Source: Bdellovibrionales bacterium (lineage in GTDB: Bacteria > Bdellovibrionota > Bdellovibrionia > Bdellovibrionales > UBA1609). Taken from it: a stretch of DNA of 52,134 nucleotides. The notes below the pieces were generated by a model. The model searched no databases and was not told where the DNA came from. It worked only from the letters and a program-made list of their open reading frames with translations. Each line of letters starts with the position of its first letter. Position 1 is the stretch's first letter. The translations under genes were made by a program, and so were the position numbers. Below are positions 11,785-40,899 of the stretch, in pieces. The stretch is from assembly GCA_013216195.1 (NCBI GenBank), contig JABSOQ010000010.1, positions 1-52,134 on the forward strand. Direction: 5' to 3'.

Positions 11785-12192
11785 TTACTTATTGTCGATT
11801 GTGATCGCAAATTTCTTTACGCCACCAGATTTTACGGCATCAATAACAGCCACCACTTGCCCGTGAGGCACGTCTCTGTCTGCTGAAATGATAGCTTGCA
11901 CGTCAGGCTTTTGAGCAGACATCTCTGTAGCATAATTTTTGATTGCCTCTTCAGATGATTCTTCACCATTCAACAGAATTTGGCCACCCTTGGTGATCGT
12001 GATACCGAGCTTGCTAGGAGTCGTTTCATCTCCACTAGCTGCCTTTGGAAGGTTCACGTTAATACTGGGTTTCATGATTAACGGCGTTGTAACCATAAAG
12101 ATGATCAAAATCACCAGAATGATATCTACGAAGGGAACAATGTTAATCTCTGCTATGGGCTCGTCTGAGTCACCACCAACTTTAGCTGCCAT
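11785..12192 (-). CDS. exbD: ExbD/TolR family biopolymer transport protein
   Basis: 135 residues. Short cytoplasmic N-terminus, one membrane segment (about 20-40) with the conserved proton-path aspartate (PFVDIILVILIIF, Asp 23) and a periplasmic domain ending AVIDAVKSGGVKKFAITID, all typical of ExbD/TolR. With ExbB it forms a proton-driven motor that energises TonB-dependent outer-membrane import or Tol-Pal. The start lies 5 bases after the exbB stop, and AAAGGA sits within the exbB end. No tonB or tolA is nearby. ExbD and TolR cannot be separated by sequence alone. Confidence 0.92.
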   Translation of the reverse strand: MAAKVGGDSDEPIAEINIVPFVDIILVILIIFMVTTPLIMKPSINVNLPKAASGDETTPSKLGITITKGGQILLNGEESSEEAIKNYATEMSAQKPDVQAIISADRDVPHGQVVAVIDAVKSGGVKKFAITIDNK

Positions 12193-12197
12193 GGCTC

Positions 12198-12830
12198 TTA
12201 GCCCTTTCCTTTAGAGCTTTTTGCATACGCCAAGCAGAGTTCGCGAACCGAATCTAGGCTCTGCATGACGCTCTTAACCTGCTTCGAGAAGTAGTTGAAA
12301 GCGATAATCGCTGGAATCGCAACGATCAAACCAATTGCAGTCGCGACAAGCGCTTCTGAGATACCTTGCATAACTGCAGAGGCCTCACCTTGGCTTTGTG
12401 CTAAGCCTCTGAAGGCGTCCATGATACCGAAAACAGTACCCAAAAGGCCGATGAACGGGGCGTTTGACCCAACGGTTGCTAAGAAGTTGAGGTAGCGTTC
12501 AAGTTTAGGCTTCTCAACTAATGAATACGAATTGAAGAGCTCTTCTAAGCCATCAGCCCCTTTCTCTTTGACGTGTCTCATGCCGTAGGCCAGGGCTCGT
12601 CCTTCAAGGGTTTGTTTGTCGCGGCTCATCTGCTCGATTTCAGAGAGATCGCTGCTTTGCAGGGTTTCGCTGATTTGCGATGCAATTTTCTTACTTTCTG
12701 ACTTAACTTTGCCAAGCGTAATGAATCGCTCGAGAATAAAAGCTAAGCTGAATACACTAAGAAGAATGAGGATCCAGAGAGTGATGTCATGACCGAATTG
12801 AGCAATGACAAAAAATTTGTCCGTAAGCAT
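12198..12830 (-). CDS. exbB: ExbB/TolQ/MotA family proton channel
   Basis: 210 residues with three membrane segments: about 12-32 (DITLWILILLSVFSLAF), 105-130 (FIGLLGTVFGIMDAFRGLA) and 150-172 (ALVATAIGLIVAIPAIIAFNYF). The last two carry the hallmark GLLGTV and ATAxGLxVAIPA sequences of ExbB/TolQ. ATG 12830 is chosen because AAGGAGC precedes it by 7 bases; the frame is open 19 codons further but without a ribosome-binding site. Partner of the downstream exbD. Divergent from the sulfatase-like lipoprotein gene with only 60 bases between starts. Confidence 0.92.
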   Translation of the reverse strand: MLTDKFFVIAQFGHDITLWILILLSVFSLAFILERFITLGKVKSESKKIASQISETLQSSDLSEIEQMSRDKQTLEGRALAYGMRHVKEKGADGLEELFNSYSLVEKPKLERYLNFLATVGSNAPFIGLLGTVFGIMDAFRGLAQSQGEASAVMQGISEALVATAIGLIVAIPAIIAFNYFSKQVKSVMQSLDSVRELCLAYAKSSKGKG

Positions 12831-12890
12831 TTTGGGCTCCTTTTTTACGCCGAAACGATTATCTCCGGGCAGGGTAGGTAGGGTCAAGAG

Positions 12891-14756
12891 ATGGGGTTAA
12901 ATAGTATCGTGAGTGGCATGCTGAAGTTGCCTACTGTTATCCAAATGCTAGTCACTCTAATAGTTTTTACACAGCTAACCGGCTGTAGTTGGGGAGAGAA
13001 AAGGGCCAAGTCTCTGATTGTCATAGCTGTAGAGGGCTTGGCTTTTGAGTCTTTTACTTGCTCCAATCTTGGCGATGACCCCGGTCAGGCAAGAGGATTC
13101 TACGCTTTTTGTGAAGAGGCTGTTCGATTCACTCACGCCTATGCCCCTTCTCCGCTTTCAAGCCCGGCATTGGCATCAATATTTACTGGGGTCTATCCTG
13201 TGGAGCATGGTCTCAGAGATCATGGTGAGACTTTCTTGCCAGCGTCTTGGCTTACGGTACCTGAGGTGGCGATCAAGAAAGGTTACCGAACAGCCTTTAT
13301 TTCCTCTGGGCCACCCGTGCTCTACAAATCGGGTCTGGGGCAAGGCTTTGAGTCTTTTCGTGATTCGGTAAACCTGAACGCAGGCAAAACGTTTAGGCCG
13401 GCTGACACTTTGGTTACAGAGGCGGTCAATTGGTTGCGCGATGACCTGGCCCGGCCCAACTTTTTGGTGATTTACCTGTCTGATCTGCAGTACCCGAATC
13501 AAACGACATTGAACAACGAAGGAGAGATTCGCAGTCAAACCTCTCAAAGCCAGCTTGAAGAAATAGATGAATCAATTGGCAACCTCGTCAACTCTCTAAA
13601 GGGTTTAGGTTTGTGGGACTCCTCCACGGTTGTGCTGGCTGGGCTTAACGGAGGCCTGTTAGAAAAAGACCCCAGAGAAGAGCGGGGAGTGAATCTGTAC
13701 ACCGAGAACATTCAAGTGAAGCTTCTTATCAAACCTAAGCGTAAAAAAAGAGACAAGGGTCTGCAGTGGAAGGTTGATCAAAATGTCACATTGGCAGATG
13801 TGGGCCAAACCCTGTTTGACTACTTAGAAACTACACCTTCAAAAGCGAGTCAGTACAACACACTCTCTTTGCGGCCGGTGCTCGAGTCACTTGAAAACAG
13901 TTTACCAGAGAAGCGGATGATCCCGATCGAGTCGGCTTGGGCGTCTTGGCGCGACGTCGGAATTCCGAGGCTCAGTATTCGAATGAATCAGTACCTCTAC
14001 ATTTTTGACAAGCGGGTCAGGTTCTATAACACCATCTATGATCGTCTTGAACGCTCGCAGATCGACCTAAAAGATCCGCTAGCCCTTGATTCGCTAGCCG
14101 AGATTGAGGGTTTTGTGTCGTCTTTGCCATATAAGCGCTGGAGGCCTTACTCCGAGACACTTCGAGAAAAGCTCCTGCTGTCTAGAAAGTACTTTTCTGA
14201 AAACCCAAACCACAAAGAGCTAGCGCGAACCCTTAAGCATTTGTCTTTGCACCGATCTTGGGATGACCAGGTCTGGGGTTGGAGAGCTCGCCTAAATTTG
14301 AAAACTCAAGATTGGGACGACCTACTCAAAATCGGCAAGGCTCAAGGTAAGGCTCATTGGGCTTTTGTAGCTCTTAAAAACCTCAAGAATGACAACCTTG
14401 CCGAGCCAGAGCTACCGCTCACTGGCTGCGCTGAGTATTTGATTGAACCGAAGAGTAAGATTTCTCCGCAAAGTTGTCTCGACTCTACTTTTCGTAAGTT
14501 TTTGTCATGGGCGTCTGAGTCTGACCCAGTGAAAGTTGAGCGTAAAAAAGAGAGATTTCTCAGGCACTACAGGTGGGTTCAATTGGAGCAACTCACTTAT
14601 GGTTTGAACTATCGAAGCGGATTGACTTGGTCGACTGACACTCAAGATTTATCTATGCCAAGCTGGACAGAACTGGCTCTAGCTCTTCCGAGGTATGCGG
14701 GCTTTAGACGTCAGGTTCAAAAATTCACCGAAAAACAGATCGCCCTAGTAGATTGA
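12891..14756 (+). CDS. Lipoprotein with degenerate sulfatase/alkaline-phosphatase fold
   Basis: 621 residues. Lipobox QLTGC (Cys 32). Residues 40-330 follow the sulfatase layout (LIVIAVEGLAFESF, SPLSSPALASIFTG, GYRTAFISSG, STVVLAGLNGG), but the active-site residues are changed. The nucleophile motif is S-S-P-A-L (90-94) instead of C/S-x-P-x-R; the first metal-binding Asp is replaced (VEGL instead of DDL or DTL); the late D-H/N-G motif reads LNGG. I infer a non-catalytic or strongly altered member. The C-terminal half (about 340-621) is helical and not recognisable. Start ATG 12891 is uncertain; ATG 12918 also gives a good lipoprotein signal. Divergent from exbB/exbD. Confidence 0.72.
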   Translation: MGLNSIVSGMLKLPTVIQMLVTLIVFTQLTGCSWGEKRAKSLIVIAVEGLAFESFTCSNLGDDPGQARGFYAFCEEAVRFTHAYAPSPLSSPALASIFTGVYPVEHGLRDHGETFLPASWLTVPEVAIKKGYRTAFISSGPPVLYKSGLGQGFESFRDSVNLNAGKTFRPADTLVTEAVNWLRDDLARPNFLVIYLSDLQYPNQTTLNNEGEIRSQTSQSQLEEIDESIGNLVNSLKGLGLWDSSTVVLAGLNGGLLEKDPREERGVNLYTENIQVKLLIKPKRKKRDKGLQWKVDQNVTLADVGQTLFDYLETTPSKASQYNTLSLRPVLESLENSLPEKRMIPIESAWASWRDVGIPRLSIRMNQYLYIFDKRVRFYNTIYDRLERSQIDLKDPLALDSLAEIEGFVSSLPYKRWRPYSETLREKLLLSRKYFSENPNHKELARTLKHLSLHRSWDDQVWGWRARLNLKTQDWDDLLKIGKAQGKAHWAFVALKNLKNDNLAEPELPLTGCAEYLIEPKSKISPQSCLDSTFRKFLSWASESDPVKVERKKERFLRHYRWVQLEQLTYGLNYRSGLTWSTDTQDLSMPSWTELALALPRYAGFRRQVQKFTEKQIALVD

Positions 14757-14770
14757 TGAGTTGTTTGATT

Positions 14771-15547
14771 TTAGATGTAAGTGGCCTCGGGGTCGTAGAA
14801 GACTTTGATTTCTATATTCGACTTTCTTTGAAACTTTGAAAGAATCGTATACAGTTCGTCTTCCGTTGCAGGCGAAATATCGGGGTTATTTGTCGAATCT
14901 TTCGCAAGCGTGTGGATGTGAATTGATTTGGGCTTCACTATGCCGACCACTTCCATCCATTCGTCTAGTTCGTCAGCATCGAGGTTTGAGTTTTGCCCCT
15001 GAAAGAAAACGCTCTGAATGATGCAATCACTGAGTTTTCGGGCTCCAGAGGTGACTTTCGACATGTTTCCGCGAATTAGAGGCGCATTGACAGCTTTAAA
15101 GCCAGTTTCGCTCGCCGCATCGATTTTGATCACTCGCTCATCATACAAATTGAGTGTTTCAACGGTTCGTCTGTTTTCTATGTGAGCTCCGTTAGTCAAA
15201 ATGATCAATTTCGCATTAGGTAAGACTTCTTGCTGAACTTTTCGCAGTCTTTCAGTGAGCTGATCTATCTCAAGATGAAGAGTGGGCTCTCCATTGCCAG
15301 ACACTAAAAGAGAGTCTATTGAAGTATTTTGAGTAACAGACTCGGTAATGATCTCTCGCAAGGCTGATTCAATTGCATCAACCGATGGAAACTCCATTTG
15401 CTTTTTTACCTGATTCATTCTGATTTCAGTGGGGCCGAGATTGCAATAAACGCAATTGTAGGAGCAGACTTTTTGGTCTCCCAAGGGGTTAATCTCAATA
15501 CTCATGCCAAAGCGCAGGCTTTGCCTGGGTGAAAGTGCTAACTTCAT
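14771..15547 (-). CDS. Radical SAM protein
   Basis: 258 residues. The radical-SAM motif is CSYNCVYC (CX3CX2C), preceded by SLRFGMSIEINPLGD; later come the glycine-rich SLLVSGNGEPTLH (SAM-binding GGE-like segment), LIILTNGAHI and VIKIDAASETGFKAVN. This pattern fits the COG0731-like Fe-S oxidoreductases, a group related to wyosine base enzymes but with many uncharacterised members. Only the SAM cluster cysteines are evident; no second iron-sulfur cluster motif is seen. Last gene of the FHA/Tad operon, 20 bases behind the phosphatase-like gene, so it may be co-transcribed although its link to that system is unclear. Convergent with the sulfatase-like gene. Confidence 0.85.
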   Translation of the reverse strand: MKLALSPRQSLRFGMSIEINPLGDQKVCSYNCVYCNLGPTEIRMNQVKKQMEFPSVDAIESALREIITESVTQNTSIDSLLVSGNGEPTLHLEIDQLTERLRKVQQEVLPNAKLIILTNGAHIENRRTVETLNLYDERVIKIDAASETGFKAVNAPLIRGNMSKVTSGARKLSDCIIQSVFFQGQNSNLDADELDEWMEVVGIVKPKSIHIHTLAKDSTNNPDISPATEDELYTILSKFQRKSNIEIKVFYDPEATYI

Positions 15548-15567
15548 TACTGTTTATGGTCTCAAAT

Positions 15568-16254
15568 TCACGAGGTGGTGTCTACAACTCCAAGCCAGAA
15601 CGGCATGTGCTGGTCTTGCTTGACCAATTCGTCGGTCATAGAGTCTAGGTTTGCGTCGGAACTGTCCATGGATAAGAAGCGAGAGGTGGCAAACGAGCGA
15701 CTCAACAGTGCAATGCGGTCGCCATCTTGTATGCCATAAGAATGAACACTTAGATTGACCTGTGGCTCTAGCCCCATGAGGGTTGCTGGAATTGGGGCCA
15801 ACATTTTGCCTGGAGGACTCAACGAAACTGATAGATCCACGTTTGTGGCAAGTGGTGCAATTGGGTAGGACTCTCGAAGAAGAAACACCTGGGGCTGACC
15901 AATTTGAATAAAGCTGAATTCACCACCAAGTATGGTGCCCACAAATATCTCAAGACCTGATTCGTACTCGGCTTTGTTATCTTCTTGATAGAGTACCTTG
16001 TTTGCTAACTGCACACAGGAGCGCAAATTGTTTGCTGCTTGCGAAAGTGACGTCATTTTATCTAAGGCTGAGGTGGCCTCACCATCGCTCTGTGAAGATA
16101 GGTAGAGATCTACAATGTTCTCGACCACTTTTTTAGCGCCAGATCGATGCCCCCATGGGGTCGCAACTATAATCAGGCTGGCATCTTTTTCTATGTGCAG
16201 AATTGGGCTAGGTCGAAAAAGTTTGCCAGAGTAGGACCTCTCGTCAAACTTCAC
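15568..16254 (-). CDS. PPM (PP2C)-phosphatase-like protein lacking metal ligands
   Basis: 228 residues. The order of segments mirrors PP2C phosphatases: LIIVATPWGHRSGAKKVVEN (usual VxDGxGGHxxGxxAS), FVGTILGGEFSFIQIGQPQ (usual TxxxxxxxxxxxxxNxGDSR), GIQDGDRIALLSRSFA (usual LxxGDxxLLxSDG). In each place the metal-binding Asp is gone: D-G becomes T-P, GDSR becomes GQPQ, SDG becomes SRS. I infer a pseudophosphatase, perhaps a phosphopeptide-binding or scaffold protein. GTG start overlaps the upstream stop by one base (TAGTG), so it is translationally coupled to the double-FHA gene. The assignment rests on motif alignment by eye and could be wrong; the pairing with FHA proteins supports it. Confidence 0.6.
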   Translation of the reverse strand: MKFDERSYSGKLFRPSPILHIEKDASLIIVATPWGHRSGAKKVVENIVDLYLSSQSDGEATSALDKMTSLSQAANNLRSCVQLANKVLYQEDNKAEYESGLEIFVGTILGGEFSFIQIGQPQVFLLRESYPIAPLATNVDLSVSLSPPGKMLAPIPATLMGLEPQVNLSVHSYGIQDGDRIALLSRSFATSRFLSMDSSDANLDSMTDELVKQDQHMPFWLGVVDTTS

Positions 16255-18350
16255 TAGATACCTTCACCATACTTTTTCAGCTTGCGTTTCGCTTTTTTGT
16301 AGTAGTCGTCAAACTCTAAGTCGTTTTGCATGATCTTCTTCCATTTTTCTTTAGCAGCCTCGACATTGCCTAGACTTTCTTCGAGGATACTATCTTCGTA
16401 AATGGATTTCATTTCTTTTCTGAGATCAGACAGGGTTTCCTTCTTAAGAGTGATCGCTTTTTTGTTTTTAGGGCTCTCTTTGGTAGCGACATCGCAGATT
16501 TGGTAGGCCTTTTTGTACTGGGCATTACTTCGAAGCGCCTCGCACTCTGTGAGAAGAGCCTCGACCTTTTGATTCAACATCGCCTTAACGCTAGCAAGCT
16601 CTCGTTTGGCATCAGTTTTCTCTTTTTTCAGAGATGGGTAGCCGCCATTTAAGAATTTTTCGTATTGCTTCGAAGCGGCATTCAGTTGATCTTCTGCCTG
16701 AAGTTTTTGTGCTTTTTTAAACTCTCTACGGCCCGCCGCAATTCTTCTCGCCACTGCAGCTTGCCTTTGTTTTGCTTGTGCCTTTTCAGCATCTCGTCTC
16801 TCAAGTCTTTCGATAAGAGCCTGAATTCTAGGGTTCGCGGGGTTGAGCTCAATCGCATCTGACATACAGGTTCTGAGTTGCTGAACAGTAGTGGTTAGGC
16901 CAATCGAGCTCTCACAGGTGTCGACAATGGCCTGAATTCGCTGCTCTGTTTCGCGTTGTCGTTTTTCTCTCGCAGCTCTGTCTTTTTCAACCTTTAACAG
17001 CTGTGCGCCCTGCTCACAGAAAGTTTTAAGTTCTTTTGAGTTTTCGTAGAGCGGAATGATGCCATGAAGATCTCTTAGCTCTGATAGACAGTTTGCGTAT
17101 TTGAGGTTGTGAAAGTGCTGTTGGGCAAGGTTAAACTTATCTTTAACTGCAGCTTGCTGTTCAGGGGTCAGTTTTTCAAAAGTTACAGAATTCTTGCCTG
17201 TCTGCCCAGGGTTTTGGCTTGGTAAATTCTTGTTTCCGCCATCATCTAACAAAAGCCCGAGCAAGACTAGGGGGGTCAGGACAGCTATCGCTATTCGGAC
17301 CTTATGCTTTTGAAAATCGAAGCCAGATTTTTCTGGTTCAGAGCCAGGGTATTGTCCACCAGGTAGTTGAGCGGGTGGGTGCATCGGGTAAGGGTAGGGA
17401 TTTACGTAGCCAGGGTTTGGAAACTGGTTAGTTAAAACCATACCCTTTTCAGCCATCTCGATCTGTTGCTCAAAATTAGGATCGCGAACCTCAAGGTTGA
17501 TGTTGATATCCATGATCTGAATCAGATCACCACTGATGAGCTTCACTTTGTTGTTTGGCTTTAGAGATTCGCCATTTAATTCTGTGCCATTGGCGCTGCC
17601 TAAGTCTTGTAGAAAGAACTGATCTTGCTCTCTAGTGATCTTGAAGTGATTGCGGCTAACGTGGCTATCATTGATATAGATCTCGCAAGCTCGCTCTCGG
17701 CCAGCTACCCAAGATGGGCCGTCATCATCAAGCTGAATCAATTCATCACGACCCGTTTCCGTGCCTGTGATCGCCATATTAAGAATGCGGGCCTTTTTGG
17801 GACCACCCATTCCATGTGGGCCAACTAGGGCTGGTAAGTTTGCGGCATTTACGGTTTCGTCTTCGCCACTAAAGCCTTGCTGCATACCGTGTGGGTTGCC
17901 TTGTACCGCTGGTAAATTGGTATTGGGTTCGTGAGTGCCATCATTGGTGCCGTCTTCAGGTTCTTGCGGGTCTGTACCATGTGGCACAAGAGCTCCACCG
18001 GCTTGGTGGTCAGGTTCCTCTTCTTGTTCCGGCTCTTCGTACTCGGGCTGCTCCTCCTCAACTTCTTCTTTCAGAATGAAGTAATAAGGGTAAACCTCAA
18101 AGCTCATATCATTGCTCAGTTCAGATTCACCTGCAAAAGTCTCGTCGATGACCAAATTGTTCATCTTTGACAGCAGCTCAACTCGCCACTGCTCGTCGAA
18201 TCTTAAGACTAAGTGCTTTCGAGAAATACCCTTGTCAGCGCCAAGTACTACATCGCAACTTTGATCGCGACCGATGAAGTACTCTTGTTCTTCATCTAAC
18301 TCTATTTCTGCGAAAGGCTTTCGCCCTTTTAAGACAACAAGCTTAGCCAT
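16254..18350 (-). CDS. Double FHA-domain membrane protein with periplasmic helical repeat region
   Basis: 698 residues. FHA domain 1 at about 1-92 (GR 27-28, SRKH 43-46), a long acidic/Pro-rich linker (93-185), FHA domain 2 at about 187-287 (GR 217-218, SRNH 232-235, NGT 254-256), a Pro/Tyr-rich stretch, one membrane segment (351-368, VRIAIAVLTPLVLLGLLL), then about 330 residues of charged helices with TPR-like spacing (ALIERLERRDAEKAQAKQRQ and similar). FHA domains bind phosphothreonine peptides; here they should be cytoplasmic and the helical part periplasmic. The linker has a repeated NLPA...PHGM element. Start ATG 18350 shares its A with the previous stop (TAATG). No kinase gene is nearby. 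Confidence 0.88.
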   Translation of the reverse strand: MAKLVVLKGRKPFAEIELDEEQEYFIGRDQSCDVVLGADKGISRKHLVLRFDEQWRVELLSKMNNLVIDETFAGESELSNDMSFEVYPYYFILKEEVEEEQPEYEEPEQEEEPDHQAGGALVPHGTDPQEPEDGTNDGTHEPNTNLPAVQGNPHGMQQGFSGEDETVNAANLPALVGPHGMGGPKKARILNMAITGTETGRDELIQLDDDGPSWVAGRERACEIYINDSHVSRNHFKITREQDQFFLQDLGSANGTELNGESLKPNNKVKLISGDLIQIMDININLEVRDPNFEQQIEMAEKGMVLTNQFPNPGYVNPYPYPMHPPAQLPGGQYPGSEPEKSGFDFQKHKVRIAIAVLTPLVLLGLLLDDGGNKNLPSQNPGQTGKNSVTFEKLTPEQQAAVKDKFNLAQQHFHNLKYANCLSELRDLHGIIPLYENSKELKTFCEQGAQLLKVEKDRAAREKRQRETEQRIQAIVDTCESSIGLTTTVQQLRTCMSDAIELNPANPRIQALIERLERRDAEKAQAKQRQAAVARRIAAGRREFKKAQKLQAEDQLNAASKQYEKFLNGGYPSLKKEKTDAKRELASVKAMLNQKVEALLTECEALRSNAQYKKAYQICDVATKESPKNKKAITLKKETLSDLRKEMKSIYEDSILEESLGNVEAAKEKWKKIMQNDLEFDDYYKKAKRKLKKYGEGI

Positions 18351-19339
18351 TAGAAGTTTTCTCCTAACTGAGCTTCGCAAGCTTCAAAATGAGCCTTTGC
18401 TTGTTTAAATCTTTTGTCAGATTTATCTCGAACCTTAACCCTTACTGTACGCATAGCGCTCATGCAGGCTCTAAACTGATTTCTTTCGCGATGGTCTTTT
18501 CCGAGCCTTAAATTATATTGTACTATCTCATCGAACTTTCTGTTACTGAGACCCAAATAGCGCTGACATAAAGTATGGTCGGGGTACAGACTTAAGCAGG
18601 TCTGAAAAGCGTCACGAGCTCGACCAAAGAGCCCTTTTCGGTAATCTCGCGAGCCTTTGATATAGGCAGCTTGAGCCTCTCGGTACTGAGCCGTGCGTTT
18701 GTTGCTCTTGCGAGCCTCGACTTCTTTTGAGAGACGCAACTGTTCAGAAGCTTCAATTTCAGCCTCAAGGTCGGCCTCTTGTGTGATTTTTGTTGGTGGT
18801 TTCTTTGTGTCCGTGTCCGAGGTCAAAAGATAAACCAGTGCTCCTAAAACAACGACAACAACAATCATAAACATCGGTGATTTTTGCTGGCGCGATTGGT
18901 TCTTGGCAGCATTCTTTTTGGATTTTGAATTTACTGGAGCACCTGTGGGAGCAAATGCACCAGCTTGTTCTCGCACAGCTAGGCCATTGTTAGGTGGGGG
19001 AGCGAGTGCAGGTGCGGGAGCAACAAAAGTAATATGAGTTTCGCCCATTGATAGTGTAACCCCAGGCAGAAGTAAGGCTGTGGTCACGGGTTGTCCGTTC
19101 ACTGAAACTGGATTCTTAGGGCTAAGACTTTCAACAGAGTAGCCTTGTGGTGTGAGGCGAATGACAGCATGGTGCCTAGAGCATTTGGTATCATGCTTGA
19201 GAACCAGATCATTTTCTGAAGAGCGGCCAATTGTCAGCTTCTTGCCGATCAAGGCGAAAGACTGCCCTTCCATGGGGCCTGTGGCCACACGGAGATGAGG
19301 TTGGCTGTTGTTGCTAGGCTGTAGTGCCCCTGCGCCCAT
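18350..19339 (-). CDS. FHA-domain membrane protein with C-terminal TPR-like region
   Basis: 329 residues. FHA domain at about 14-107 with the binding-loop residues GR (38-39) and SRHH (54-57); the later loop reads NGQ (81-83) rather than NGT. Then an Ala/Pro linker, a basic patch (139-153), one membrane segment (156-173, FMIVVVVVLGALVYLLTS), and a helical TPR-like domain (about 185-325) with several cysteines (FQTCLSLYPDHTLCQRYLG, FRACMSAM, HFEACEAQL). TPR-like parts often bind partner proteins, here on the periplasmic side. Its start lies 2 bases after the upstream FHA-sensor stop, with GAGGAGG within that gene. Same layout as the next gene, suggesting duplication. Confidence 0.87.
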   Translation of the reverse strand: MGAGALQPSNNSQPHLRVATGPMEGQSFALIGKKLTIGRSSENDLVLKHDTKCSRHHAVIRLTPQGYSVESLSPKNPVSVNGQPVTTALLLPGVTLSMGETHITFVAPAPALAPPPNNGLAVREQAGAFAPTGAPVNSKSKKNAAKNQSRQQKSPMFMIVVVVVLGALVYLLTSDTDTKKPPTKITQEADLEAEIEASEQLRLSKEVEARKSNKRTAQYREAQAAYIKGSRDYRKGLFGRARDAFQTCLSLYPDHTLCQRYLGLSNRKFDEIVQYNLRLGKDHRERNQFRACMSAMRTVRVKVRDKSDKRFKQAKAHFEACEAQLGENF

Positions 19340-19341
19340 TG

Positions 19342-20997
19342 CTATTCAGCCTCCTCTGCTCCAGCCGGGAACAAAACACACACAAAGTAGGCGATACCTT
19401 GAGAGCCTTGAACACTACTGAGAGCAATTTGATAATCGTCACCACCAAAATCAATTTGATCAGTTGCAATTTGATCAGGTGCCATTTCATTTCTGCCAAT
19501 AAGATCTTCTAAATTTGCTTTTAGTGCCTGGTCTGTGATTGTGCCCACAGGTTGCGACATCAAATCATTAGCGTGAATACGAGTGGCTTCTTCAAAAGCC
19601 TCATTCACTGCTGTCACAGTTCGATCTGAGGCATTGATGGCAATGGCACCAAAGCCGATGAGTTGTACAACATTGCTCATCTCTTGAAAGCGATCGGCCT
19701 CAAAGGTGAGAGCTCCCCCGCCGTCACCGCCACTTGAGCCGGTTCGAGATAGCGCACTTGAAATATTATTTCCGAGCTCCTTGAGCACATCAAATTCATA
19801 ATCGACCTCGATCTGCGAGGTCTCGTTTTTGAGCGCATCATTCAGCTGACGGTTAATGCTTGCAATTGGGTAGTGAATCATCTTGTACAAGAAGAAAAAC
19901 AAAATACTGCCCACTATCAGCGCAATAAAAAGAGTTTGAATGAACAAGCTCAGGGTTTTACCGTCATCAATCGCTAAGGAGCCCATGTCAAAGACTACAA
20001 CAGAGTAGGCAGTGATGGCCCGTGAACCCGTCTCTGGGTTGTAGAACTCCATAGGTGCCATTGCGACAACAGTGTCGGAGTCTACTTGCTTGACGCTTTC
20101 GCGTCCCATTAAGCGACCTTCATGAATATATTGAATATCTGGGTAGCTTCCAGCCTTGCTTGGTGGTGCAATGATCGCACCACCATCGACAGTTGAAATA
20201 ACAAATGCTTTTGTCACACCGGCACGATCAAGGGCAAAAGCCACTGAAATGTTGGTGGTGAGGCCTTGACTGAGAGGAGCTGCGTTGATTTTGGCAAGAG
20301 TCTTCGCAATGGTGAGCGCATGCTCTTGGCTCTCTCGCTCAACACTCGCTTTGAGTATGCGAAGTAGCGGAATGGTCGAGAGTGAAGTGACCAAAATGAT
20401 GAATGCGCCCATGAAAATACCAAGAACCCATTTGAACTCGAGCATTTGAGGCAGTTTGTAAATTCCTGGCAGTACCACATCATCAAGGTACTCTTGAATT
20501 CGCTCTTGTATTGTTTCAGGCTCGAAGTCTTCGTCTTCCTCGTTGTCTTCATCGGGATTCATTTGGTCTGGCATGGCCTGGGCATTGAGTGCAGCATTGC
20601 CATGGAACTGGGCCATCTGTTGCTGTTGATACATGGGATGACCTTGAGGTTGCGGAAAGGCCTGCATGCCAGGGCCAGGATGAACGTATTGCCTAGCAGT
20701 TGTTAAGTTCTGAGGATCACATATTTCAATGTACACATCGTGGAAGGCAAGCTTGTCTCCGGCTTGCAGCAGTTTCTTGCGAACCTGGACGCCGTTCACG
20801 AAAGTGCCGTTACGAGAGTCGAGGTCTTTGACAATGACCTTCTCACCATTGCTGGCGATTTGGGCGTGATTTTTTGAGACCCCATTGCTCATTAGGGCGA
20901 CATCACACTCCTGCGAACGACCGATTGTCATAACACCCTCTTTGATGGGTATGACCTGTCCTGATTGTGGCCCTGTTAGGATCTTAATCAATAACAT
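19342..20997 (-). CDS. FHA-domain transmembrane sensor with PAS-like C-terminus, no output domain
   Basis: 551 residues. FHA domain at about 1-95 (GR 26-27, SKNH 41-44, NGT 63-65); Gln/Pro-rich and acidic linker; membrane segment 1 at about 190-210 (WVLGIFMGAFIILV); an extracytoplasmic sensor-like domain of about 150 residues; membrane segment 2 near 365-388 (LFIALIVGSILFFFLYKMI) with a HAMP-like follow-on (HYPIASINRQLNDAL); PAS-like domain at about 455-551 (QLIGFGAIAINASDRTVTAV). It looks like a chemosensor or histidine-kinase input half with an FHA in front and no kinase, cyclase or methyl-accepting output. AGGAG precedes ATG 20997. It overlaps the DUF192 gene by 14 bases. Confidence 0.87.
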   Translation of the reverse strand: MLLIKILTGPQSGQVIPIKEGVMTIGRSQECDVALMSNGVSKNHAQIASNGEKVIVKDLDSRNGTFVNGVQVRKKLLQAGDKLAFHDVYIEICDPQNLTTARQYVHPGPGMQAFPQPQGHPMYQQQQMAQFHGNAALNAQAMPDQMNPDEDNEEDEDFEPETIQERIQEYLDDVVLPGIYKLPQMLEFKWVLGIFMGAFIILVTSLSTIPLLRILKASVERESQEHALTIAKTLAKINAAPLSQGLTTNISVAFALDRAGVTKAFVISTVDGGAIIAPPSKAGSYPDIQYIHEGRLMGRESVKQVDSDTVVAMAPMEFYNPETGSRAITAYSVVVFDMGSLAIDDGKTLSLFIQTLFIALIVGSILFFFLYKMIHYPIASINRQLNDALKNETSQIEVDYEFDVLKELGNNISSALSRTGSSGGDGGGALTFEADRFQEMSNVVQLIGFGAIAINASDRTVTAVNEAFEEATRIHANDLMSQPVGTITDQALKANLEDLIGRNEMAPDQIATDQIDFGGDDYQIALSSVQGSQGIAYFVCVLFPAGAEEAE

Positions 20998-21337
20998 TGA
21001 GCTGGTCTCCTGGCTGTACTTCTCTATTGCTGAGTGCTCCCGCAGTGAACTCGAAAACATCTTTTGCGCCCCAGCCGCCATAAAAAATGAGGCGCCAAGG
21101 GCCAACATCTCGGTGAACTGATGTCACTTTCAAGTTGCGATCAACGAAAATCACATCTAATCGAAACTTCATAAAAAAAGTATGAATTGAAGGGCACTTG
21201 TGAATCCACAAAGTGCGGTTGCTGTCGAGCGTTTCACGGCCCAATAAGCCTTTGTTTCTTTGCGCAAAGGTTGAAGCCACTTCAACAAAATTAGCTAGAG
21301 TCTGACCGTTTGATGTGTTCACGAGTTGGCTCATCAT
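20984..21337 (-). CDS. DUF192 family protein
   Basis: 117 residues matching DUF192: VASTFAQRNKGLLGRETLD, then LWIHKCPSIHTFFMKFRLDVIFVD (family pattern FWMKNTxIPLDIxFxD), GGWGAKDVFEFTAG (pattern A-x-x-VLEL-x-AG) and GDQLNVI at the end. Family members are small, often periplasmic or lipid-anchored proteins of unknown function; this one shows no obvious signal peptide, so it may be cytoplasmic. The ATG follows the tadC stop with no gap (TAG-ATG), and the gene overlaps the next FHA-sensor gene, so it is locked into the Tad/FHA operon. Confidence 0.88.
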   Translation of the reverse strand: MMSQLVNTSNGQTLANFVEVASTFAQRNKGLLGRETLDSNRTLWIHKCPSIHTFFMKFRLDVIFVDRNLKVTSVHRDVGPWRLIFYGGWGAKDVFEFTAGALSNREVQPGDQLNVID

Positions 21338-22255
21338 CTACTTGCCCCCGTAAAAGAACTGAAGAATAACGGGAGAGAAAACCATGATAAAAACGGCCGG
21401 CAGAATGAACACCATCATCGGAATCAGCATTTTCTGAGTCGCCTCGGCACCAGCTTTTTCGGCACGGACGAAACGTTCAAGTCTCATTTGCTCAGACTGG
21501 TCTTTCAGTACCTGAGAGATACTTGCACCAGTAGAGTCCGAGTCGACGACTACTGCAATGAAACTTGTAATCTCGCTCATGTCGAGGCGAGCCACCATGC
21601 CCCTTAGCGCATCAGCTCGTGAGCTACCGATCTTGATATCTTTGAGAACTGTTCGAAATTCGTTAGCAAGTACGCTGTCGTCTTCTGCTTTTTCGACAAT
21701 TCGCTCAATACCTCCAACGAAGTCGAGCCCGGCCTCCGTACACAGTGCCAGTAGGTCAATGAAAAAAGGCAATTCCACAATCACTGAGGTGTACCGCATT
21801 TTCTTTTGTTGGTTGCAGTAGAGCCCAGGAAAAACGATACCGAAGGCTCCGATCGCTCCCGCTGCCCAGTAAGGGTAACCAAGTTGCAGGGCGAAGTTCA
21901 GCACTACAAACACAATCGGGAACATGATTCCCCACAGAATCTGCAAGCCGATGTACTCATCAACGTTGATGGTACGTGAGAGACCAGCTGTGAGAATTCT
22001 CTTCTCAACTTTCTTTCGGTAGTTTTGGCTCTTAATTCGTTGTGCATGTTGCAGGGTAAAGTTGTGAACCAGAGGGCGAGAGTAGTTGATGAACGAAGAA
22101 TCTGACTTGTTCGGCTCATCGCCAGAGGCCCACGCAAGCGCATCGGCATCTGCGTTGTTGGTGAACACAGACGAAACGAAGAGGTACACGGAAAGAGCAA
22201 ATAGCCCCAACCCACTGAGGAGAATCACATACAAATTTAAATCCTGGCTTAACAT
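21338..22255 (-). CDS. tadC: Tad pilus inner-membrane protein TadC (GspF/T2SF family)
   Basis: 305 residues. Membrane segments at about 7-31, 102-121 and 127-148, and 277-301; the T2SF domain lies between them, with the TadC-type sequence LPFFIDLLALCTEAGLDFVGG and the later SQVLKDQSEQMRLERFVRAE. TadC with TadB forms the platform on which the ATPase TadA drives assembly of Flp/Tad pili. The other tad genes are not in the window. First gene of a seven-gene minus-strand operon that continues with DUF192 and FHA proteins; AAAGGTGAG precedes the ATG. Its start is only 30 bases from the divergent maf start, so promoters must overlap coding sequence. Confidence 0.85.
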   Translation of the reverse strand: MLSQDLNLYVILLSGLGLFALSVYLFVSSVFTNNADADALAWASGDEPNKSDSSFINYSRPLVHNFTLQHAQRIKSQNYRKKVEKRILTAGLSRTINVDEYIGLQILWGIMFPIVFVVLNFALQLGYPYWAAGAIGAFGIVFPGLYCNQQKKMRYTSVIVELPFFIDLLALCTEAGLDFVGGIERIVEKAEDDSVLANEFRTVLKDIKIGSSRADALRGMVARLDMSEITSFIAVVVDSDSTGASISQVLKDQSEQMRLERFVRAEKAGAEATQKMLIPMMVFILPAVFIMVFSPVILQFFYGGK

Positions 22256-37259: not shown

Positions 37260-39371
37260 TTGAATCGTTCGAATAGACGCAGACAGAAGCCAGCAGCCTC
37301 TAAACCAATAAAAAAAATGAAAGTGCTTGAGGGCGTTGTGAAACGCCATCCCGATGGGTTTGGCTTTTTCGTTCCAGACAAGAGCGACATGCCTGATGTC
37401 TACATACCAAAGCATGACATGGTTGGGGTTATGTCGAATGACCGAATACTTGTGAATGTCTACCCAGAACCAGGTGGCAAACGTTTTCGAGGCGAAGTCA
37501 TGAAGGTGATTGATCGCGGTCAGCAGGTGGTTACAGGCTTTTTGCATGAACTCGGTGACGCGTACTTTTTGAAAGACACAAGTCACGCGTGGGGAGAAGA
37601 CCTAACCATTGAGAACCCACATCGCTATGACATCAAAGAAGGCGTGTGGGTCTTGGCTCGTATTCGAAGCTTTCCTGGTGATCCAAAGGGGTTCTCTGGT
37701 GATGTTGAGAGCATTGTCGAAGATATTGAAAACCCTTTGAATGATGCCCTTAGGGTGTTGTCGACTTCAGGTATCCCTCATCAGTTTTCAGCGGAAACTT
37801 TGAAACAAGCCGATCAATTGAGTGAAGAGGTTGCTGAATCTGATAAGAAAGGTCGTATTGATCTTAGGGAAATGCCTTTGATTACCATTGATGGTGTGAC
37901 CGCTAAAGACTTCGACGACGCCATCTTTGTTGAGACCAACAACAAAGGCTTTCGCCTTGTTGTGGCTATTGCCGACGTCAGTCACTATGTGAAAATCGAT
38001 AGCCCAATTGATAAAGATGCCTATGAAAGAGGAACTAGTACTTACTTTCCGAATTTCGTTTCGCCCATGTTGCCAGAAGTTCTTTCAAATGGGCTCTGCA
38101 GTTTGAAGCCAAAAGTTGATCGACTTGCCATGGTAGCTGACACTCAGCTCGATTTTCAGGGTGAGTTGGTTGAAGCCAACTTTTATGAAGCCGTGATCAA
38201 CTCGCATGCGAGAGTGACCTATGGGCAAGCACAAGAGGTTATCGATGGTGACCACGATTTGTTTGAGCGAGATGTTGTAGGCACTATTCTTCAGGCAGCA
38301 GATTTAGCGAAGATCCTGATGGCTAGACGTTTTAAAAATGGAGCCTTGAACCTAGAGATACCAGAGACTGAGATAGAGCTCGACGACACAGGTGAGCCGA
38401 TTGATATCATGAAGTCAGAAAGGCTTTTTGCTCATAAGCTCATTGAAGAAATGATGCTGACGGCGAATGTTGCCGTTGCTTTGCACTTCACCAAAAATGA
38501 GATACCAGCTCTGTACCGCATACACGACCAGCCAAAACCAGAGGCAATTGAAAAGCTCAATGCATTTTTGAAGACTCTGGGTTCTACCAAGATGGTGTCT
38601 GGCGGAGGCATGCAGAAGAAATTGACGAAGACACTGCAAGAGTACCAGGGGCATCCTAAAGAGAAGGTTATGAGCATTTTGATTTTGCGCTCGATGTCTC
38701 AAGCTCAATACAGTGCGCACAATATTGGGCATTTTGGTCTTGGCTTTGAAGACTACTCTCACTTTACCTCTCCCATCAGAAGGTATCCCGATTTGATTGT
38801 GCATAGATTGCTTAAGGCTTCACTCAAGCTTGGCAAAGGCTATCATTTGAGGCCTGAGGATATACTAGAGACTGATGGCTCAGTGCTAAGTGCTCACGAG
38901 CAAAGATCCGTGAAGGCAGAGCGTCAAATTCATGCCATTAAGAAAGCTCGCTTCATGCGAAGGCATATTGGTGAAGAATTTGAGGGAATCATTAGCTCTG
39001 TTACGAAATTTGGTTTATTTGTTCTGATTCGGCATTTCGACATCGATGGGCTGATCCGAGTCGACGATTTGGGTTTTGGCTGTGAGTTCGATGAAGAGAA
39101 TTTGCAGATGGTGGTTGGACGCAGTGGAAAAACCTACTCAATCGGCGATCCTATTGAAATCACTGTGGCTTCTGTGAATATTGATGACGGCAGAATTGAC
39201 TTTGTGCCGGCAGGGGGAGAAAAACGTTCCGATGATTCTGAAAAAGCGGCCAAATCCCCTTCAAAACGCAAATCGGCTAAAAACAATAGCCGGGGTGTTC
39301 GCAAGGCACGGGTTTCAGGATCTGGTAGAAAGACTAAATCTCGGAAGAAGTCTCGCAAAAAAAATAACTGA
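37260..39371 (+). CDS. rnr: Ribonuclease R
   Basis: 703 residues. 3'-5' exoribonuclease that degrades structured RNA. Cold-shock-like N-terminal domains (GVVKRHPDGFGFFVPD), RNB catalytic domain with ITIDGVTAKDFDDAIF (the Asp cluster for Mg2+), HFGLGFEDYSHFTSPIRRYPDLIVHRLL (RNB hallmark), C-terminal S1 domain (about 570-650, FEGIISSVTKFGLFVLI), then a Lys/Ser/Arg-rich tail of about 50 residues. Starts with TTG 37260 (weak AGAGATA before it); ATG 37318 is an alternative. The last 140 bases, the tail, also encode the start of ubiB in another frame. Confidence 0.95.
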   Translation: MNRSNRRRQKPAASKPIKKMKVLEGVVKRHPDGFGFFVPDKSDMPDVYIPKHDMVGVMSNDRILVNVYPEPGGKRFRGEVMKVIDRGQQVVTGFLHELGDAYFLKDTSHAWGEDLTIENPHRYDIKEGVWVLARIRSFPGDPKGFSGDVESIVEDIENPLNDALRVLSTSGIPHQFSAETLKQADQLSEEVAESDKKGRIDLREMPLITIDGVTAKDFDDAIFVETNNKGFRLVVAIADVSHYVKIDSPIDKDAYERGTSTYFPNFVSPMLPEVLSNGLCSLKPKVDRLAMVADTQLDFQGELVEANFYEAVINSHARVTYGQAQEVIDGDHDLFERDVVGTILQAADLAKILMARRFKNGALNLEIPETEIELDDTGEPIDIMKSERLFAHKLIEEMMLTANVAVALHFTKNEIPALYRIHDQPKPEAIEKLNAFLKTLGSTKMVSGGGMQKKLTKTLQEYQGHPKEKVMSILILRSMSQAQYSAHNIGHFGLGFEDYSHFTSPIRRYPDLIVHRLLKASLKLGKGYHLRPEDILETDGSVLSAHEQRSVKAERQIHAIKKARFMRRHIGEEFEGIISSVTKFGLFVLIRHFDIDGLIRVDDLGFGCEFDEENLQMVVGRSGKTYSIGDPIEITVASVNIDDGRIDFVPAGGEKRSDDSEKAAKSPSKRKSAKNNSRGVRKARVSGSGRKTKSRKKSRKKNN

Positions 39372-40899
39372 TCCAGGGCTTGAGGGGTTAACAGCTGCAG
39401 CTAGAACTCGTTTAGCCTTCGAGGCCCTTGGGCCAACTTTCGTAAAATTGGGTCAGTTGCTTGCGACTCGTCCAGATTTGATTCCGCTTGATTTTGTTGA
39501 AGAGTTCAAAAAACTTCACGACCAGGCTCCCACACTTCCTTTTGAAGACATTCGTAAAGTGCTCGATAGCCATTTTGATCGTGAATTGTCAGACGTGTTT
39601 TCATCATTTGATGAGAAGCCTTTGGCTGCAGCAAGTATCGCTCAGGTGCACCAGGCCGTTTTGCTGACTGGTGAAGAGGTGGTGGTTAAAGTCCAGAGAC
39701 CTGGTATCGACAAGACGATCAAAGAAGATCTTAGTGTTCTGTACTTTCTTGCCAAGCTGATCAATCGGTATGTGGCTGAAGCTAAATTGCTAAACCCTGT
39801 CGGCATTGTCGATGAGTTCTTCAAATCACTTGAGCTCGAAACCAACTTTGTGGTTGAAGCCAATAACATTCGCCGTTTTCAACAGAGCTTCAAAGATGAT
39901 GAAGACATTGTGATCCCGAGAGTTAGGGCTGAAATGTCAGGCCGAAGAGTCCTGGTGATGGAAAAGCTTAAGGGTATTCCGTTAAGTCAGAAGAATGCTC
40001 TCGATCAAGAGGGTATCGACCCTGAGCAGATCTTGAAAAAAGGCCTAAGGGCTTATTTGAAAATGGTGTTCATGGATGGCCTGTTTCATGGAGACCTCCA
40101 TGCCGGCAATATTTTTGTCTTGCCTAACAACCAAGTTGGGTTGATTGATTTTGGTGTTGTGGGTCGACTTAACGACAAAACGCAAGGTGCCATTGTGAAC
40201 ATGATGTTGGCTTTGGCTAGCGAAGACTATGATCGCTTGGCCTATCAATATGTTGATCTCGCTCCATACTCAGAAAAAGTTGACGTCGATCGCTTGGCTC
40301 GTCAGCTGCGAGATCTCATAGCCCCTTACTTTGGTTTGACTCTAAAAAATGTGAATGTCGGCAAGCTTCTCATGGACTCAACCGCGGTTGCCGCCAGTCA
40401 CCAGTTGGTGTTGCCCTCAGAGCTGGTGATGTTCTTTAAATCATTGGTGACCGTAGAGGGAATGGCCAGGTTGATCTCTTCAGAGTTTGATTTGTTGTCA
40501 GCTTCGCTCGAATTTGCTGATGAGTTGATCTATCATCGCTACAAACCACAGAAAGTATTGAAAGATGTGAGTGAGGTAGGTCGAGATGTTGTCTCGTTGA
40601 TTCAGTATTTGCCTAGGCAAATTAGGCAATTTGCGAGAAAGGTCAACAACCCCGACTATTCAGTCAAAGTGAGCATTTCTGAGATTGATCGCCACAGCCA
40701 GGCTGTCGACCGTGGCGCCTCGGTTATCTTTCTTGGTTTGGTGTCTGCAGCACTCACGATAAGTTCAACTATGATTTTGGTTGCAGACTTAGATTTGCCA
40801 ACCATCCTGGGGCTGCCAGCTCTCTCTGTAGTTGGGTACTCTCTTGCTGCAGCATTGGCGCTGATGGGCCTACGAACCAAAGCTTCAAAAAAGCATTAG
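39232..40899 (+). CDS. ubiB: ABC1/UbiB family atypical kinase
   Basis: 555 residues. UbiB proteins are atypical kinases/ATPases needed for ubiquinone (or related isoprenoid lipid) synthesis. Motifs: NANRLKTIAGVFARHGFQDL (typical N-terminus), GPTFVKLGQLLATRPDLIP (KxGQ, residues 72-75), LAAASIAQVHQA (Ala-rich loop), EEVVVKVQRPGI (Lys), LETNFVVEANN (ExD-like), FHGDLHAGNIF (catalytic loop), VGLIDFGVVG (DFG-like), and two C-terminal membrane segments (about 505-545). Starts at ATG 39232 (GGGGGAG 12 bases before), inside rnr. The N-terminus is family-like, so the overlap with rnr is real and not an annotation artefact. Role in quinone synthesis is inferred from family. Confidence 0.92.
   Translation: MILKKRPNPLQNANRLKTIAGVFARHGFQDLVERLNLGRSLAKKITDPGLEGLTAAARTRLAFEALGPTFVKLGQLLATRPDLIPLDFVEEFKKLHDQAPTLPFEDIRKVLDSHFDRELSDVFSSFDEKPLAAASIAQVHQAVLLTGEEVVVKVQRPGIDKTIKEDLSVLYFLAKLINRYVAEAKLLNPVGIVDEFFKSLELETNFVVEANNIRRFQQSFKDDEDIVIPRVRAEMSGRRVLVMEKLKGIPLSQKNALDQEGIDPEQILKKGLRAYLKMVFMDGLFHGDLHAGNIFVLPNNQVGLIDFGVVGRLNDKTQGAIVNMMLALASEDYDRLAYQYVDLAPYSEKVDVDRLARQLRDLIAPYFGLTLKNVNVGKLLMDSTAVAASHQLVLPSELVMFFKSLVTVEGMARLISSEFDLLSASLEFADELIYHRYKPQKVLKDVSEVGRDVVSLIQYLPRQIRQFARKVNNPDYSVKVSISEIDRHSQAVDRGASVIFLGLVSAALTISSTMILVADLDLPTILGLPALSVVGYSLAAALALMGLRTKASKKH

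Follow-up and report, generated by a model that had tools for sequence, protein, structure and literature searches.

In Bdellovibrio bacteriovorus, disruption of genes in the Bd0470-Bd0475 operon abolishes predation at different steps: a Bd0470 mutant shows no prey attachment, killing or rounding, and a Bd0474 mutant attaches to prey and neither kills nor rounds it (PMC6561027). The gene bd0470 is down-regulated during host-independent growth (PMC3818213); two-hybrid work showed Bd0474 to bind the TPR protein Bd0075, and an interaction of Bd0473 with Bd0475, the latter termed hypothetical, has been modelled with an ipTM of 0.604 (PMC12034629). A comparable apparatus is the Kil system of Myxococcus xanthus, a Tad-like pilus of predators in which FHA proteins are over-represented, for which Bdellovibrionales were named as carriers and for which Seef et al. 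suggested a phosphorylation cascade by analogy to the T6SS (PMC8460266). In the T6SS itself, the PpkA-PppA-Fha1 pathway couples FHA readers and a PP2C eraser to a machine used upon contact. Within B. bacteriovorus, gating of invasion by a phosphothreonine-binding FHA domain is supported structurally for DgcB; a missing kinase is suspected, and Bd3148 was put forward as a candidate by Meek et al. (PMC6733907).

The stretch of DNA analysed here (the window; 52,134 nucleotides from a Bdellovibrionales bacterium) carries the counterpart of Bd0470-Bd0475, with six genes in identical order, and Bdellovibrio-type loci in our set (L048 and L127) match the published lengths of 674 aa for Bd0474 and 228 aa for Bd0475. 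A sequence-only reading of the window had taken this combination of genes for an undescribed system, which it is not, since both the operon (PMC6561027, PMC12034629) and the FHA-rich Kil system (PMC8460266) have been published; the operon, the predation role of its tadC and FHA3 genes and its kinship to Kil are already known. What appears to be new is that the sixth gene has changed from a phosphatase to a pseudophosphatase in an operon that retains its phosphothreonine readers. The open-licence publications that call Bd0475 hypothetical describe neither a degenerate PP2C nor intact relatives, and among open-licence papers we found no report of its PP2C nature or of its catalytic loss.

Read along the minus strand, the operon is headed by tadC (21338..22255; Pfam T2SSF, 62.7 bits), encoding the inner-membrane platform of a Tad (type IVb/IVc) pilus, and this gene is followed by that of a small DUF192 (COG1430) protein (20984..21337; Pfam DUF192, 71.5 bits) whose slot is conserved phylum-wide, the FHA proteins FHA1 (19342..20997), FHA2 (18350..19339) and FHA3 (16254..18347), and the PP2C-like protein (15568..16254). 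The starts of FHA1 and FHA3 were revised, most likely to 20997 and 18347, where their homologues begin in alignments, and the gaps between successive genes are then 0, -14, 2, 2, -1 and 20 bases, in agreement with the original description of seven tightly packed minus-strand genes at 14771-22255 separated by 0-20 bases or overlapping; their ORFs and domains were likewise confirmed. The six genes are presumably co-transcribed; in promoter and terminator scans, signals were no commoner than in shuffled sequences. The seventh gene, encoding a radical SAM protein (14771..15547, minus strand; Pfam Radical_SAM, 33.7 bits), does adjoin the others in the window, but it lies next to the block in only about 24 loci of the order and in none from other classes, and it is therefore an occasional downstream neighbour outside the conserved unit rather than a member of a seven-gene operon.

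The six-gene unit is conserved far beyond chance. Its order was the same in all 18 order-level loci first fetched, and across the roughly 170 loci scanned in Bdellovibrionota, from the order and from other classes, it recurred in essentially every locus with enough contig. The proposal in the sequence-only reading had been tied to conservation of gene order among relatives, and the order from tadC to the PP2C gene is indeed kept phylum-wide. Of 153 genomes from the phylum, 151 yielded a TadC ortholog in profile searches, and contig searches with TadC as the query returned Bdellovibrionota-type loci only. In one genome (G004) both TadC and the PP2C-like protein are missing and the FHA genes present, on contig C40, belong to a different locus; this double absence resembles a co-loss, or it may instead reflect a contig gap. 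In family f11, outside the order, the genes from tadC to FHA3 are kept and the sixth slot holds no PP2C (L185, L192, L197, L201, L203 and L205), so the PP2C protein is not obligatory. Beside the operon, the window has a sulfatase-family gene (12891-14756, plus strand) and TolQ/TolR-type genes (12198-12887 and 11785-12192, both minus strand); because the same genes also neighbour the operon in the Bdellovibrio-type locus L048, synteny reaches past the operon itself.

Association of an FHA/PP2C block with a single tadC gene might be an accident of history, with the block controlling a function other than the pilus, such as gliding. Two features would fit such an origin: in Bdellovibrionales, tadB and the ATPase gene, like the remaining Tad genes, lie at a second locus (L153 and L155), away from tadC and the block, and the FHA-TPR architecture is GltG-like. 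We consider this highly improbable, because tadC heads the operon everywhere, predation phenotypes are reported for both Bd0470 and Bd0474 (PMC6561027) and a complete Tad locus, including pilin, prepilin peptidase, CpaB, secretin, a fused ParA-T2SSE ATPase and TadB, directly adjoins the block in other classes. Through this contiguity, the connection of the FHA/PP2C block with the Tad pilus extends beyond a single gene, in line with the link to the Tad platform suggested from the window, where the TadC-type T2SSF membrane protein is present and the linked ATPase, TadB, CpaB, secretin, pilin and prepilin peptidase are supplied by the loci of relatives. Searches of the window's own assembly (G000, 296 contigs) did not find TadB or the ParA-fused Tad ATPase, yielding only weaker CpaF-like ATPases on contigs C13 and C266; since the sister species has the Tad ATPase, TadB and other Tad genes at its second locus (L155), an assembly gap is the probable reason. 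In two classes, the gene that immediately follows tadB encodes a protein of about 570-590 aa with RHS-repeat/DUF6531 domains (L155:357-2057 and L182:260-2032), and ORFs of similar length follow tadB in L166 and L173; this protein could be a secreted or tip-related Tad part.

The locus is akin to Kil in being a Tad-like cluster that is rich in FHA proteins and belongs to a lineage of predators, and contact-dependent killing of prey of the Kil kind is supported by mutants for its B. bacteriovorus counterparts (PMC6561027). The two differ in their ATPases: that of Kil has an N-terminal FHA domain, whereas the Tad ATPases of L155 and L182 are fused to a CbiA/ParA-type domain. Moreover, neither a phosphatase nor DUF192 is mentioned in the main text of the Kil paper (PMC8460266).

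The operon encodes four FHA domains above the Pfam cut-off, spread over three proteins. That all three are membrane-anchored, as had been proposed from the sequence, was confirmed, and FHA1 proved richer than described: its AlphaFold model (pLDDT 86.6) places, in order, an FHA domain, a membrane helix, a periplasmic sensor-like domain, a second membrane helix, a HAMP-like coil and a PAS domain, a predicted layout because of which FHA1 resembles a membrane sensor that lacks a kinase domain. In a fold search with the complete model, the matches were chiefly to its FHA part and to the sensor kinase WalK. FHA2, the counterpart of Bd0473, consists of an FHA domain (47.5 bits), a membrane segment and periplasmic TPR-like helices with a weak TPR_2 match, and FHA3, the counterpart of Bd0474, has two FHA domains (FHA3a and FHA3b; 98.9 bits over the FHA stretches) ahead of a membrane segment and similar helices. 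The TPR repeats attributed to FHA2 and FHA3 fell below Pfam cut-offs in the window; however, TPR has been described for Bd0474 (PMC12034629).

The binding pockets bear on whether these domains would read phosphothreonine. The pocket Arg, Ser and Asn are complete in FHA1 and FHA3b and nearly so in FHA2, and FHA3a lacks the Asn. Conservation follows the same division: R, S, H and N are 96-100% conserved in FHA1, R, S and N are 96-100% conserved in FHA3b, and FHA2 has R and S at 100% and Asn at 82%, whereas in FHA3a the Asn is mostly lost both inside and outside the order. The near-invariance of the pockets of FHA1, FHA2 (for R and S) and FHA3b applies to the order and to its relatives alike. FHA-like domains can also act without phosphate, as in YscD and GltG-like proteins, and the FHA domains here could accordingly be structural, phospho-independent docking modules, as in the SctD/YscD rings of the T3SS, with the FHA-TPR and PP2C-like proteins forming a scaffold at the base of the pilus and Bdellovibrionales having no phosphorylation signal at this locus. 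All three FHA proteins have Yop-YscD_cpl matches, along with weak matches to type_III_yscD and GltG, and both the loss of the phosphatase in the order and that of the pocket Asn in FHA3a are compatible with such a role. Phosphate-independent docking is opposed by the near-complete retention of R, S and N in FHA1 and FHA3b, and of R and S in FHA2, after the loss of the phosphatase; kinases are present, and the FHA domain of DgcB in B. bacteriovorus binds phosphothreonine (PMC6733907). We therefore view a purely structural role as rather unlikely.

The sixth protein matches nothing in Pfam or NCBIfam, and its affinities emerge from its predicted structure. Its AlphaFold model is compact and confident (pLDDT 95), and the best Foldseek matches are tPphA (E 5e-13), PstP and PppA of the T6SS, with a match probability of 1.00 and a TM of ~0.65-0.70 to tPphA pointing to a PP2C beta-sandwich. 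A profile of the proteins from the order gave weak PDB matches (E 0.013), all of them to PP2C enzymes. Outside the order, most orthologs in the slot are recognised as PP2C by Pfam (up to 46 bits), and that of L165 matches PP2C in the PDB by phmmer with an E of 1e-16. The possibility that weak PP2C matches in other classes represent unrelated phosphatases was rejected for 19 of 20.

Although the fold is predicted to be that of a phosphatase, the catalytic residues are gone throughout the order. The metal-binding residues (ED, DGxGG, SDG, DN) are complete in 42 and partly kept in 15 of the 59 PP2C-type slot proteins outside Bdellovibrionales, and the metal-binding Asp set is kept in none of the 76 within, including the protein in the window, where TPWGH takes the place of DGxGG (residues 32-36; 16147..16161, minus strand) in an alignment with intact orthologs. 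These counts leave out a free-standing PP2C (L183) and five slots of other classes that hold no PP2C (L186, L193, L196, L207 and L215, the last of which may reflect a wrong choice of frame). The same contrast is obtained without alignment, with DGxGG in 0 of 75 proteins inside the order versus 56 of 59 outside. The protein had been thought to look inactive, and both halves of that view, PP2C-like and lacking catalytic residues, are borne out. In a quick tree of TadC, the order forms a single branch with a support of 100, and intact PP2C forms are found on either side of the root, which was placed at the midpoint and whose position was not inferred; partial degeneration arose several more times in other lineages. 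The simplest history suggested by these sequences is an active PP2C ancestor whose catalytic residues all disappeared at the base of the order. That intact and dead forms are the same gene, with no replacement, is judged from their position, the profile match between them and a shared loop, and the intact orthologs outside the order would, from their residues, be catalytically active. A parallel exists in metazoan PHLPP2, reported to be a PP2C-fold protein that was retained after losing its activity in an ancestor (PMC12002173); the present protein, by contrast, is bacterial and single-domain, belongs to a pilus operon and has relatives whose copies in that slot are intact.

Genes that lose their catalytic residues may simply be decaying, and the PP2C-like gene could be a passenger under relaxed selection, held only by its position at the end of the operon. 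The repeated partial degeneration in other lineages and the slot without PP2C in f11 are in keeping with such decay. Unlike a decaying gene, however, this one is matched exactly once in 94 of the 99 Bdellovibrionales genomes, mostly at 30-50% identity over its full length; it encodes a confident, compact fold; and T61, N93, E102, G119, G161 and W220 are invariant. In addition, a D-x-[DE]-x-T-x-P loop (DGEATSA in the window, residues 57-63 with the Thr at T61; 16066..16086, minus strand) is present in 68 of 75 proteins of the order and 51 of 59 outside, versus 0.4% of shuffles. We thus find a passenger improbable. The loop is specific to this PP2C family, and the stretch aligns to a gap in tPphA. 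Its Thr occurs in 100% of the 42 intact forms and 97% of the pseudo forms of the order. Because the loop is kept in both living and dead PP2C proteins, it suggests a binding function independent of catalysis. An extension of this idea, in which the loop Thr is itself phosphorylated and read by the FHA domains of the operon, so that the pseudophosphatase would act as a phospho-ligand or decoy, a signal carrier gating the pilus at prey contact, seems to us unlikely.

A phosphothreonine signal needs a writer, and the domain and ORF searches found no kinase gene within the operon. Five Hanks kinases above the Pfam cut-off are encoded in the window genome, all outside the operon, and at least one occurs in each of the 26 genomes tested, among which no relation was seen between kinase number and the state of the phosphatase. 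The expectation that the writer lies elsewhere is thereby sustained, and the suggestion that the signal might be something other than phosphorylation becomes less likely in view of the phosphothreonine pockets, the relatives with intact catalytic residues in the slot and the Hanks kinases in every genome checked. A candidate writer is a Hanks kinase of 712 aa that carries a PEGA domain (L161:2716-4854, minus strand), kinases of similar length being found in most genomes of the phylum that we checked. The window also contains a 572 aa ORF (39181-40899, plus strand) with a sub-threshold protein-kinase match, like those in frames of about 575 aa in many relatives, and this ORF is probably a UbiB/ABC1-type protein. 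The locus shares with the T6SS pathway a contact-used machine, FHA readers and a PP2C protein with PppA among its closest folds; it differs in that the machine is a Tad pilus, the PP2C is dead in the order, and no cognate kinase is encoded beside the phosphatase and FHA proteins.

We judge it reasonably probable that the operon encodes, along with the TadC platform of a predation-type Tad pilus, an arm for phosphothreonine signalling whose PP2C eraser was turned into a non-catalytic binding part in Bdellovibrionales, as the catalytic residues are gone in the Bdellovibrio branch and kept in relatives outside. Upon an encounter with prey, a kinase encoded elsewhere would phosphorylate a target; FHA1, as a membrane sensor, together with FHA2 and FHA3 would bind phosphothreonine on the cytoplasmic side; and the FHA proteins would relay this state across the membrane to the periplasmic TPR-like domains, thereby gating how the pilus is assembled or how it acts at the contact pole. 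The ancestral sixth gene would have encoded an active PP2C phosphatase that reset the switch. All of its catalytic residues would then have disappeared in the ancestor of Bdellovibrionales, with the fold, the place and the D-x-E-x-T-x-P loop being kept, and the dead protein would serve in binding rather than catalysis, with FHA2 as its probable docking partner. The gene cluster, its synteny with the full Tad locus, the disappearance of the catalytic residues and the persistence of the FHA pockets are observed, and the PP2C fold is predicted, whereas phospho-gating of the pilus, the direction of signalling, the kinase, the docking role and the function of the pseudophosphatase are inferred. Several observations count against such a signalling arm: the operon is free of kinases, the f11 slot holds no PP2C, TadB and the Tad ATPase are missing from the window assembly, the pocket Asn of FHA3a is mostly lost, the docking of Bd0473 and Bd0475 is a model of modest score, and FHA-like domains do not always require phosphate. 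To our knowledge, no phosphorylation or phospho-site has been reported for the proteins of this operon.

The loss of PP2C catalytic residues at one ancestor, followed by retention of the protein across an entire order, provides a clear bacterial case of this kind of change. The hypothetical protein Bd0475 can now be identified as a pseudophosphatase, and its intact-enzyme relatives in the same slot offer ready comparisons. For the question of how Bdellovibrio senses its prey and fires its invasion apparatus, an operon essential for predation is now tied to a likely phosphothreonine switch.
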